Shown here piece by piece: positions 1,375-5,356 of a DNA stretch of 8,413 nt. Source of the DNA: Deltaproteobacteria bacterium RIFOXYA12_FULL_61_11 (GTDB taxonomy: Bacteria; Bdellovibrionota_F; JAHFAK01; YA12-FULL-61-11). The stretch covers positions 1 to 8,413 of the forward strand of contig MGSU01000177.1 of assembly GCA_001799195.1 (NCBI GenBank), read 5' to 3'. The notes below the pieces were generated by a model, which saw only the letters and a list, made by a program, of their open reading frames with translations, did no database searches and had not been told where the DNA came from. The translations under genes and the position numbers were made by a program. Positions within the stretch are counted from its first letter, which is position 1. The number at the start of each line of letters is the position of its first letter.

Positions 1375-3636
1375 TCAATTCGTCTTCGGCAACACCTCTC
1401 GGGCGTAAAGGGCCACGATCTTGTCGGCGCAGTGGCCGCAATAACCCTGATGCTCGATCAAACGGTTGCGGAAATCCTCGAAGGTGTCGAGGTCCTCGGG
1501 AGCGACCTTTCCCACCTCGGCCAAGCTGCGCATGGCTTTGCGCAACTTGATCACGAAATCACCTTGATAGTCCTCGAGATACCGTTTGACCGCGGTGAGC
1601 AACTCCGGCTTCTTGACCTTGAGGCGGGCGACCAGCCAACTCATGCTGTCGGCCTCCTGGACCTGGCCCTGCTTATCGCGGATGTCCACGATCAGGGAGA
1701 GCAACCTCGAACGGTAATCCTCGGGTTTGTCCTCGAGGTAACTCTCGATCTTGTCGAGGAATTCTCCGTTCGCGGGGAGGTCCTTCTGGGAAAAGCGGTC
1801 CCGTGAGCTCTCCTTCTTGATCGCCCTGGTCAGCTCCCGCAAGTAACGCTCCAGCACTTGGTTCTTCTCGAGGTCGCCCAAGCCCATGGCCTGTTCGACG
1901 TCCTCGATGAGGAAGCCGTAGTATTCCTTGGTCAGTTTTTCGAGGAACGAGAGGTAATTGTCCAGCTTCTCCGCGGTCTGACCCTTGTCCTCGTTGATGT
2001 TGGCGCGGATCGCGTCCATGGCCAGGAGCGGGTCGATGCACTTGTCGTGGCTGCAACGCTCGGTATGCACGGTGCAGATATCGTTCATGAGCACGAAAGA
2101 AAGCAGGTTCTGGAAATACCGCGGGTCGAAGCCGATACCCAGGCCCTCGCCGTTCTTGGTTGCAACGATCATGGTGGCTCGGACGTCGAGCTGCCTACCT
2201 CCGACCTTGAGGGTGTCTCCGTTGTAACAGCGGTATTTGTCGTAGATCAGGTCGGCGTCATAGCGCTGCGATTCGTACTCTTTCCTGATCTCGAGAGAGT
2301 GGCGGCGGCCCTTCAGACCCGCGATGGCCGTGGTCGCGCTGTCCTTCTCGACTATGTCGTCGGTCAGCCGGCTCATCACCTCGAAACCTGCGATGCAACG
2401 GAAGAGGTGGGGCGAGAAGTGGACCTTGGGATAGACCGTGTGGTTGAACTCCTTCTGGTAGATCTTGGCCTCCTCGTTGGCGATGAGGAGGTGGGGGATG
2501 TCGTAGGTGATCAAGCGCGAATTGAAGGCGTCGTCCTCCAGCGAGAGGAGCATGTCGTACTGGAGCGGGTTGGTGTGCCCGATCAGCACCTCGTCCACCT
2601 CCATCTCCGGGCAGTTCCCCGGCTTGACGATGTGTTCCTGACTGGCGCTCATCAGGCGTTTGAGTTTCTGGCTGAGACCGTACTTGCTGACCCCGCGGAA
2701 GATCTCTTTGACTTCCAGGAGGCCGCGGTTGGCAACGTTCATCTCTCCATCGAGGAAGAACTCCTTGCGCCGCAGGTGGGCGGGACGGGCACCGTCGGGT
2801 AGGGTGTCCACGGCATAACCGACCAGACCCTGGATGTCCTCTTCCATGAGGTTGTCGATGACTCCGATGCCGACGCGGTTCGCCCGGGAGATGCTGGTTT
2901 TCTTGACCCGGACCTCCTCCAGGACCTTGCGCAGGTTGCCCTTGTGCTGCTCTCGCAAGAGATTGTAATGCTCGTTGCAGAACGGGCAGAGGTCCCCCTG
3001 GAGCTTCTGGCCCAGCCATTTCTCGTAGTGCGGTTCCAAGTCGACGCCGTCGGGCACATCGCGTAGCAGTCGGTTGAGGAGGTGCAAGGGTTCTTCGTTG
3101 ATCGGGCAGACGGTGACATTATACTTTTGATTCAAGGTGTTACTTCCCTCGGCAAAGCCCAAGAACTTGTCCTTCTCGCTCCAGTCCAAGGTATAGAACG
3201 ACCCCTTCGCCGTCTTGGAGTATTCCTCGAGGCCGCGTTTGAAGAGGTTGACGATGGTGCTTTTGGCGCTGCCCTTGGGGCCGTGCAGGATCAGGATGCG
3301 ATGGGAGAGCGAGGAGTTGTCGGCGGCCGATTGGAAAAAGGCGATGAGTTCCTCGAGGTTGAGGTCGATGCCATAGACCGCGTTGAGGCCGCGGTCGAAG
3401 GGGTCGTCGAAGAGGTTGTAGCGCAGGAGCTCGCTCTCGCCCAGGCGGATGGTGCGCGTCCCGAAGGACTGGAGCATGGCGTACATGCGGCTGAAAGCGT
3501 TCTGGACCAGAGCAGGATTGCGCCGTATCAGCTCGAGGTATTGCTCGAAGCCGATACAGACGTTCTCGGTCTCGAAATGGTGTTCCGAGGCCTCGGAGAG
3601 CCGGTCGAGGAGCTTGCTGATCTGCTTGTCGGACAT
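1375..3636 (-). CDS. prkA: PrkA-family serine protein kinase (AAA+ P-loop type)
   Basis: Member of the PrkA/YeaG family: an N-terminal AAA-type domain (PrkA_AAA) and a C-terminal PrkA domain. Numbering from the chosen start, the SFEEYL-like segment GFEQYLEL is near 29, FDDPFDRGL near 76, the Walker A loop GPKGSAKST at 119-127, FLDGEMNVANRGLLE near 294, SASQEHIVKPGN near 331, and a Walker-B-like EVLIGHTNP near 349. At about 753 residues it is longer than E. coli YeaG (about 640) and carries Cys pairs (CPFC near 217, CSHDKC, and CGHC near the C-terminus) that could bind zinc. The family block that usually reads PKDEKNQD is here NLMEEDIQ. I chose ATG 3636 because GAGG lies 6 nt upstream and a promoter sits about 24 nt further out; an in-frame GTG at 3648 has no ribosome site. 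The usual partners yeaH/DUF444 and spoVR are absent from this window. Confidence 0.94.
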   Translation of the reverse strand: MSDKQISKLLDRLSEASEHHFETENVCIGFEQYLELIRRNPALVQNAFSRMYAMLQSFGTRTIRLGESELLRYNLFDDPFDRGLNAVYGIDLNLEELIAFFQSAADNSSLSHRILILHGPKGSAKSTIVNLFKRGLEEYSKTAKGSFYTLDWSEKDKFLGFAEGSNTLNQKYNVTVCPINEEPLHLLNRLLRDVPDGVDLEPHYEKWLGQKLQGDLCPFCNEHYNLLREQHKGNLRKVLEEVRVKKTSISRANRVGIGVIDNLMEEDIQGLVGYAVDTLPDGARPAHLRRKEFFLDGEMNVANRGLLEVKEIFRGVSKYGLSQKLKRLMSASQEHIVKPGNCPEMEVDEVLIGHTNPLQYDMLLSLEDDAFNSRLITYDIPHLLIANEEAKIYQKEFNHTVYPKVHFSPHLFRCIAGFEVMSRLTDDIVEKDSATTAIAGLKGRRHSLEIRKEYESQRYDADLIYDKYRCYNGDTLKVGGRQLDVRATMIVATKNGEGLGIGFDPRYFQNLLSFVLMNDICTVHTERCSHDKCIDPLLAMDAIRANINEDKGQTAEKLDNYLSFLEKLTKEYYGFLIEDVEQAMGLGDLEKNQVLERYLRELTRAIKKESSRDRFSQKDLPANGEFLDKIESYLEDKPEDYRSRLLSLIVDIRDKQGQVQEADSMSWLVARLKVKKPELLTAVKRYLEDYQGDFVIKLRKAMRSLAEVGKVAPEDLDTFEDFRNRLIEHQGYCGHCADKIVALYAREVLPKTN

Positions 3637-3695: not shown

Positions 3696-3742
3696 TGGGG
3701 ATCGGTTGGACGTGGGTAAACCTTCAGTCTTGACTTGGGTAA

Positions 3743-3923
3743 GGGGTCCTGTCGCCTCTCACACCGACGCCGCTGCATCCTGCGCGTCGCTTGGAGGTCC
3801 GCATCCTTGCGGTCGCCCCCACCGTGCTCATGCTTGCGCCCGATGGTGCAGCATCCTGCGCACCACTTGGAGGTGTGCATCCTTGCACCCACCGTGGCGG
3901 GGGTCCCCCGTCGGCGCCACCCC
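3743..3923. repeat. Tandem structured repeat with compensatory stem changes (possible RNA element)
   Basis: Two copies with a 76-nt period. Copy A: CGACGC (3765-3770) pairs with GCGTCG (3784-3789) around an inner GCA-TCC-TGC hairpin, then the spacer CTTGGAGGT, then CCGCA-TCCT-TGCGG (3799-3812). Copy B: TGGTGC (3844-3849) pairs with GCACCA (3860-3865) around the same GCA-TCC-TGC, then the same CTTGGAGGT, then GTGCA-TCCT-TGCAC (3875-3888). Both copies are followed by CCACCGTG. Loops and spacer are identical while five stem pairs change on both sides. GGGGT (3743-3747) can pair with ACCCC (3919-3923) to close the block, and a GC-rich stem (GTGGCG 3894-3899 with CGCCAC 3915-3920) ends it. I do not recognise a named family. 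Bases 3696-3742 and 3957-4041 of this gap show nothing I can name. Confidence 0.7.
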
Positions 3924-3925
3924 AA

Positions 3926-3956
3926 TGTGGTGAAAAACAACCTGCAATTCACCCCA
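3926..3956. repeat. Imperfect inverted repeat (8 of 9 pairs, 13-nt loop)
   Basis: TGTGGTGAA (3926-3934) pairs with TTCACCCCA (3948-3956) with one mismatch around an A-rich 13-nt loop. It begins three bases after the tandem hairpin block and may be its edge or a separate operator. There is no T-run after it, so a terminator is unlikely. Confidence 0.35.
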
Positions 3957-4041
3957 AGACCGAAGGATATTGAACTAGTGGAGGGAGGTGTCTTGGAACA
4001 GATTCTCGTCGACGGATGAGAAGGATCTTCGCACGGGATTC

Positions 4042-4070
4042 TTGATGCCGAGCGGGCTCTCCAGTATGAT
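4042..4070 (+). promoter_or_regulatory. Near-consensus sigma70-type promoter for the PilZ gene
   Basis: TTGATG (4042-4047) and TATGAT (4065-4070) are separated by exactly 17 nt. Each differs little from consensus (4 of 6 and 5 of 6). The expected transcription start, 6-8 nt after the -10 box, is 4076-4078, immediately before the GTG at 4079. The mRNA would be leaderless from GTG 4079, or have a leader of about 23 nt if ATG 4100 is used. Confidence 0.6.
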
Positions 4071-4078
4071 CCCCTAAG

Positions 4079-5356
4079 GTGAGCAACTGGTCTTGCACCA
4101 TGACCCTCGAAGCCCTCAAGCAATTGGCCGAGTCCCTGCCGTATCTCGACAAGCTCCAGGCCAGGGACTACCTCAACGACCTCATACGCTCCGACGAGGA
4201 GGCTTCCAAGGATGCGCCGCTGAGCGGACAGGAAAAGCGCCGAAGCCGTCGTTTCGAGGTCGATATCAGCGCCACGGGCATGGTGTTGCGCGAGAGTATC
4301 CAGACCAATGCCAAGCGTTTCAACACCAAGATCCTCGATCTGTCCCGCGAAGGGGTGCGCTTCCTCACCAGGCAAGCCATAGCCATGCGCGAGCTGTGTA
4401 TCCTCAGCTTCCGCCACCAGCAGCTCGGCTTCAAGAAGATCTACGTGGAGATCCTGCGCATCAAAGAGCAGCAGAAGGGGCAGGACACCATGTACGAATA
4501 CGGCGGCATCGCCGTGGACGAGGGCAGGGTCGAATTGTACCTGGTCTCGCTCGAGCGCGGGAAGCTGCTCGACCAGCGCATCTCCAGCCGCAGTCGCTTC
4601 ACGGTCCTGGCCTATGTCCATTCCTCCTATAAACAAGCCATCACCTCCCTCGAACGCGAGGGGTTCACCGTCCGTTCGGTCGACAGTCGGCAGCGCATTC
4701 TCAAGGAGTTGATGGACACCTCCTGTGATTTGGCCATCCTCGACGTGGACCTCATCGGTCCGGAACTCGACAAGCTGGTCACCTCGCTCAAGCGCTTCCG
4801 TCAAGACCTGATGGTCTTCGCTGTCTGCGGGAATCCCGAGACGCAGAAGGAAGTGCTCGATCAGAAGGGCATCTACGAAGTACTCCATCGCAAGACCTCC
4901 CAGTTCGAACTCGGATACAAGATCGACAAGGCCTTGCGGCACGTCATCATGTCGGACTGGAATTTCCTGACCAAGACCAAATTACGCATGTTGGTCTTCT
5001 GCGGGGACGATCCCACTGCGGCTCGTATCGACGAGCACCTCCACTCCATGCGCTGTTTTACCCTGGTCCATCGCGCCGACCGGCCGGTCGCCGAATTCAT
5101 CCGAGACCGTGGTGTCGGCGAATTCGACTTCTTCTGCTTCGATGTGCAGAGGTTCCTCAAGAATGACTTTGTCAAGCTCTCCACCTTGCTGGAAACCCTC
5201 TCCATCCCAACCATCGCCTTCGATGTCGACGACCACCGCAAGAAGGTCGCGCTCGGCTACCATTTCGACCAGTTCGTCCAACTCCCCCTCTCGGGGGTCC
5301 TGCTCGAAGAACTCCTCCGGGCAGCCTATGTCTCCAAGATGTGGCGCAATCGCTGA
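4079..5356 (+). CDS. PilZ-domain protein fused to two degenerate receiver-like domains
   Basis: A 425-residue cytoplasmic protein without membrane segments. Residues 1-45 look helical. A PilZ domain spans about 52-175, with the c-di-GMP-binding RxxxR motif intact (R54 to R58, in RRSRR) and the DxSxxG motif as DLSREG (87-92). Two segments with receiver-like alternation follow. The first (about 174-290) keeps D222 in LAILDVDL at the phospho-acceptor position and K272 in LHRK, but has lost the acidic pair and the Thr/Ser. The second (about 301-416) starts LVFCGDDP, keeps D355 in FFCFDVQ, but reads FVQLPL where YLTKPF is expected, so the lysine is missing. Likely role: a c-di-GMP effector whose receiver-like parts bind partners rather than take part in phosphotransfer (inference). 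The start could be GTG 4079 or ATG 4100; neither has a well-spaced ribosome site. It is divergent from prkA across the hairpin-bearing gap. Confidence 0.85.
   Translation: MSNWSCTMTLEALKQLAESLPYLDKLQARDYLNDLIRSDEEASKDAPLSGQEKRRSRRFEVDISATGMVLRESIQTNAKRFNTKILDLSREGVRFLTRQAIAMRELCILSFRHQQLGFKKIYVEILRIKEQQKGQDTMYEYGGIAVDEGRVELYLVSLERGKLLDQRISSRSRFTVLAYVHSSYKQAITSLEREGFTVRSVDSRQRILKELMDTSCDLAILDVDLIGPELDKLVTSLKRFRQDLMVFAVCGNPETQKEVLDQKGIYEVLHRKTSQFELGYKIDKALRHVIMSDWNFLTKTKLRMLVFCGDDPTAARIDEHLHSMRCFTLVHRADRPVAEFIRDRGVGEFDFFCFDVQRFLKNDFVKLSTLLETLSIPTIAFDVDDHRKKVALGYHFDQFVQLPLSGVLLEELLRAAYVSKMWRNR

Follow-up and report, generated by a model that had tools for sequence, protein, structure and literature searches.

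The locus and its tandem hairpins

The window, that is, the whole stretch of 8,413 nucleotides analysed here, contains the divergent genes prkA and a PilZ-domain gene, and a block of tandem hairpins lies between them, as stated in the preliminary description. The genes start at about 3648 (prkA) and 4079 (PilZ), and the element that holds the block is upstream of both (Table 1). The PilZ-domain protein (4079-5356, + strand) has a weak receiver-like stretch behind PilZ, below the Pfam cut-off. A promoter-like site at 4042-4070 lies outside the element.

Table 1. Features of the mobile elements in the window.
Feature	Position	Strand	Evidence or remark
Y1/RAYT-type transposase gene fragment, cut by contig end	2..214	-	tblastn 76% over 71 aa to the RAYT of L148
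MITE-like carrier, 256 bp, two-module class	3716..3971	+	64 two-ended copies, three size classes
Carrier left terminal inverted repeat, GTAAACCTTCAGTCTTGACTTGG	3716..3738	+	match to family TIR GTAAnnCTTCAGTCTTGGG
Module A, 54-nt double hairpin	3764..3817	+	covariance-model match 3759-3818, 82.8 bits; missing from the 135-bp class
Module A hairpin 1, triloop TCC	3765..3789	+	direct reading, covariation test
Module A hairpin 2, tetraloop TCCT	3799..3812	+	direct reading, covariation test
Module B, 54-nt double hairpin	3840..3893	+	covariance-model match 3835-3894, 79.3 bits
Module B hairpin 1, triloop TCC	3844..3865	+	direct reading, covariation test
Module B hairpin 2, tetraloop TCCT	3875..3888	+	direct reading, covariation test
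Carrier right terminal inverted repeat, ACCCCAAGACCGAAGGATATT on the + strand	3949..3971	-	match to family TIR

The block consists of two copies, A and B, whose starts are 76 nt apart. The outer stem of copy A pairs CGACGC (3765-3770) with GCGTCG (3784-3789) around an inner GCA-TCC-TGC, and is followed by the spacer CTTGGAGGT (3790-3798) and a second hairpin of CCGCA (3799-3803), loop TCCT and TGCGG (3808-3812). Copy B pairs TGGTGC (3844-3849) with GCACCA (3860-3865) around the same inner GCA-TCC-TGC; its spacer CTTGGAGGT (3866-3874) is identical to that of copy A, and its second hairpin is GTGCA (3875-3879), TCCT and TGCAC (3884-3888). The 76-nt period, the identical loops and the identical 9-nt spacer described earlier can thus all be read directly. 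The strand folds better than shuffled sequence both as RNA (z -2.8) and as DNA (z -2.7).

The five two-sided pair changes described between the stems are all present, but three of them depend on a 3-nt register shift, because the outer 5' arms of the two copies lie 79 nt rather than 76 nt apart and lack base-for-base homology. Read in register, copy A in the window has one mismatch (CGCCGC versus GCGTCG). In sister copies of module A whose 3' arm is GCGGCG (e.g., L002), this arm pairs perfectly, in register, with the unchanged 5' arm, and covariation therefore holds in the family. A single 5' arm, CGACGCCGC, serves both registers of module A.

The carrier element

A blastn search with the block in its own genome yielded 60 matches at about 40 locations, of which many are contig ends. 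The assembly is fragmented (342 contigs) and 87% complete. The flanks of these matches contain terminal inverted repeats (TIRs) of the form GTA(A/T)nnCTTCAGTCTTGGG. Searching for this end pattern gave 62 and 60 matches on the two strands versus 2 and 4 for the reversed control, and 64 distinct elements have both ends. Measured from TTCAG to TTCAG, with the GTA(A/T) tip seven bases further out on each side, they are about 135, 188 or 242 bp long: 40 are of 130-139 bp, 18 of 182-192 bp, five of 238-244 bp and one of 166 bp. The size steps correspond to zero, one or two inserted 54-nt modules. The window element has two, and the 40 smallest of the 64 are module-free. Within the carrier, CTCAC precedes module A and TTGCGC precedes module B; in L029, a third module type, C, follows GGCGCCAC.

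The family has an 8-bp target duplication. Flank identity is 52.7% over exactly 8 bp, while 1000 flank shuffles averaged 28% and never exceeded 33%; by position, identity is 45-58% within the 8 positions and 16-33% outside them. At the window copy a duplication is not detectable, as its flanks agree at 4 of 8 positions. With TIRs at both ends and a target duplication of fixed length in the family, the carrier has the features of a MITE, and the prkA-PilZ spacer is one of the family's many insertion sites, where the element may possibly affect either gene.

A GTAA tip is typical of IS66-family elements. These elements are also known for 8-bp repeats (PMC3281130). From its TIRs and 8-bp target duplications, the carrier is therefore expected to be moved by a DDE transposase, most likely one of the IS66 type. 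It has the 8-bp duplication and the GTAA-starting ends, but its inverted repeat is not shared by a set of IS66 transposase genes. The IS66 copy assembled in this genome starts with GTAAGCGCGTAA, which agrees with the carrier TIR over the first four bases only, and we rejected it as a proven partner since the repeats differ past GTAA. No full-length autonomous element with the carrier's own TIRs was found among the TIR matches in this incomplete genome. Both results count against the transposition model that we favor below, as does the fragmented state of the assembly. At another locus (L262, G000:C53:14434-16995), IS66 tnpA-tnpB is accompanied by a truncated tnpC, whose frame ends near module-carrying RAYT-type sequence.

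Distribution and nesting of the modules

The module itself is repeated throughout the genome. An exact pattern found 52 copies versus none in reversed controls, and a covariance model gave 92 matches at E<=0.1 and 94 at E<=1. Of the possibilities raised in the preliminary description, that of a dispersed repeat family was accordingly right, given the 64 carriers and about 90 module matches in the same genome. Block DNA matched only its own genome among 59 genomes (own included), and the covariance model found no match in the one other genome of the same class that was searched. A public genome collection searched with the module pattern contains look-alike hairpins in Rhodanobacter, Dyella, Shewanella, Nitrospira and others. 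In these (L120-L141), similar hairpin pairs with GCATCCTGC and GGTnnGCATCCnTGC apices lie inside other structured repeats. The covariance model gave at most five weak matches per look-alike genome (E 0.006 or worse); since these are few and weak, we do not claim membership of the same family, and the resemblance may reflect kinship or convergence.

Among the first 56 modules extracted, 48 lie in the carrier (32 in complete MITEs and 16 in contig-cut or hybrid MITEs). Of the other eight, seven are at the 3' ends of transposase genes and the last is at a contig edge. The loops of the modules are fixed as TCC and TCCN, the stems are variable yet self-complementary, and the two hairpins are arranged head-to-tail. 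The palindrome foot is GGAG in 43, GTAG in seven and GCAG in six. At one locus (L230, G000:C287:867-979, 1680-1850 and 3435-3547), three arrays, each a tandem of two or three modules, lie within 2.7 kb of a single contig. In two other genes (L234, L238) modules occur where open frames are present, and these showed no domain.

Modules are also inserted into one another. In L241 and L239 the host of the nested module is module A of a MITE, in L237 it is an A-like module, and in L245, L249, L231 and L232 it is another module type. Each nested module directly follows TCCTGC or a variant of it, and the target bases are not duplicated. Because the last four loci, and perhaps also the first three, share descent, we count at least two independent nesting events; that there were perhaps just two weakens the case for a mobile module, as does the lack of a detectable target duplication at the window copy.

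Covariation of the stems

The 27 distinct modules have standard pairs at 88.6% of paired positions. Two-sided changes occur in 44 cells versus 17.3 in shuffles, and none of 500 column shuffles reached 44; slid partners, used as a control, gave 1-11 two-sided changes. In one MAFFT alignment the C-type modules are out of place in hairpin 1, an error that lowers the pair counts and does not raise them. When arms were swapped among 15 module types (one of the 15 rows being cut at the wrong place by the parser), own arms paired better than swapped ones (7.7 versus 5.5), and none of 5000 swaps reached the own-arm value. The p-values of both tests are optimistic, as the sequences are related and kinship was ignored. 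The pairing nevertheless exceeds all controls, and stem covariation in the module family is real. The preliminary description took such covariation as a signature of selection on structure. Our tests support selection on the hairpin or its templated maintenance, and a mobile hairpin substrate fits this at least as well as RNA does.

A structured non-coding or cis-regulatory RNA, in which tandem hairpins transcribed from the prkA-PilZ spacer would bind a protein or target through their conserved loops, agrees with the covarying stems, the fixed loops and the RNA folding score. However, a search of Rfam with the block gave no covariance-model match at E<=1, and no promoter-like or terminator-like site was found within the element. 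The copies stand in mobile contexts, including transposase genes and scattered spacers, and the large module-free class of carriers also counts against an RNA function. We therefore consider this option, which had been put forward earlier, improbable. With about 90 copies in the genome, mostly in a short mobile element and partly in transposase genes, the module is better regarded as mobile DNA than as a new RNA gene.

A protein-binding tandem array comparable to BIMEs, bound by gyrase, IHF or Pol I and serving a chromosome function that includes regulation of prkA and the PilZ gene, seems very improbable. Such arrays are known for the REP/BIME sequences of E. coli, and the element does lie in a divergent promoter region. 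However, modules are present in some and absent from other carriers that are otherwise alike, and the same-class genome searched with the covariance model had no match. Protein binding to BIMEs is noted in PMC2817692.

Modules in Y1 transposase genes

The genome has 14 matches to Y1 transposases, which are HUH enzymes. The ORF adjoining a two-module array in L116/L148 encodes a Y1 transposase (Pfam Y1_Tnp, E 1e-9), and close sister genes of this ORF are without the module. The NCBIfam model for REP-associated tyrosine transposases (RAYTs) is reached weakly by the same ORF (30.4 bits, cut-off 80), which counts against the transposition model.

These RAYT-type genes carry the module in frame at their 3' end, either singly or in tandem. 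Their C-terminal tails are 9-11 residues long without a module, 27 residues (+18) with one module (C56, C199, C104 and C306) and 45 residues (+36) with two (C194). In-frame modules occur in three transposase subfamilies, the third represented by a rearranged remnant (C192), and each subfamily also has uninserted sisters. The insertion point is constant, in the SD..KD tail, which could result from recurrent insertion at one site or from gene conversion. In the remnant (L249, G000:C192), one open frame mixes modules with fragments of the N- and C-terminal coding ends in shuffled order.

The modules outside the MITE bear on whether the module is a passive passenger, which has no transposase of its own, is spread only by the MITE and keeps its stems complementary through slippage (quasipalindrome correction) and not selection. 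This is rather unlikely. The large share of extracted modules that lie within the MITE would be expected of a passenger, and the covarying types represent few lineages. However, modules are also found at RAYT 3' ends and elsewhere, they occupy three sites within the MITE, and their loops are fixed. As the module is found without the MITE and at three MITE sites, it has itself been repeatedly moved or copied.

Discussion

The block is best explained as a REP-like hairpin module that Y1 transposases move in single-stranded form and that has multiplied within an IS66-type MITE, an explanation to which we assign a probability of about 70%. A non-autonomous element would have landed between prkA and the PilZ gene, carrying two smaller mobile units, the 54-nt modules, inside it. 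Y1 transposases would recognize the folded, single-stranded form of the module and, during replication, copy or paste it after TCCTGC-type sites. The fixed loops might then be recognition marks and the covarying stems a consequence of needing a hairpin, while the MITE as a vehicle would have amplified module numbers. The repeat family, its architecture, the target duplication, the covariation and the in-frame and nested insertions are directly demonstrated. We infer the acting enzymes from sequence, for the module (Y1) as well as for the carrier (IS66-type), and the hairpin is their presumed substrate.

Single-strand transposition is known from IS200/IS605. It fits the module, which duplicates no target bases, prefers a single short target, has fixed-loop hairpins and is linked to Y1 genes. 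The same has been proposed for REPs (PMC3733652, PMC8266576). More tentatively, the module could be an independent single-strand mini-transposon that targets the position 3' of TCCTGC, including that in its own first hairpin, and so nests within itself. Being exactly 18 codons long, it would stay in frame in the transposase genes that move it, and the unrelated DDE-type MITE would serve as a second vehicle. This possibility is less likely than not.

The module resembles REPs and the REPtron/TIRtron systems in several respects. It is a short palindrome in high copy number, as the covariance-model matches in one genome confirm; its subfamilies differ by alternative complementary stem residues; it flanks or overlaps the 3' end of Y1 transposase genes; and it has intragenic copies. 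REP families with alternative stems, REPs overlapping transposase 3' ends, TIR-flanked relatives of RAYTs and intragenic REPs have all been described (PMC3733652), as have GTAG REP families, REPtrons and TIRtrons, and the RAYT/TIRYT transposases (PMC3733652, PMC8266576). However, the module is a fixed 54-nt pair of head-to-tail hairpins with two loop types, whereas head-to-tail (HT) REP dimers are reported to be absent or under-represented (PMC3733652). Most of its copies ride in an element with TIRs and target duplications, and its foot is mostly GGAG. We rejected strict membership of the GTAG REPs on the scarcity of the GTAG foot (7/56), which also counts against the transposition model.

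Other mobile palindromes show partial likeness. The hairpins of REPINs are inverted relative to each other, while those of the module are head-to-tail. Both consist of two REP-like hairpins, which in REPINs form the mobile unit (PMC3116915). Rickettsia palindromic elements are in-frame palindromic insertions in protein genes (PMC10969869); compared by feature and not by sequence, the module shares the in-frame insertion, but it is 54 nt versus about 150 nt long and its clear in-frame hosts are transposase genes. The carrier resembles IS66-type MITEs in its GTA(A/T) tip, its 8-bp target duplication, its lack of coding sequence and its tens of copies. It differs in that no autonomous element with the same TIRs was found and in that its interior has three sites that accept a second mobile module.

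Collectively, one genome holds filled and empty sites, nested modules, and transposase sister genes that either carry or lack the module. The spread of REP-like palindromes is therefore directly testable here, with candidates for donor, target and enzyme defined. Riding in a MITE would offer a hairpin repeat a route to higher copy numbers outside its transposase gene.
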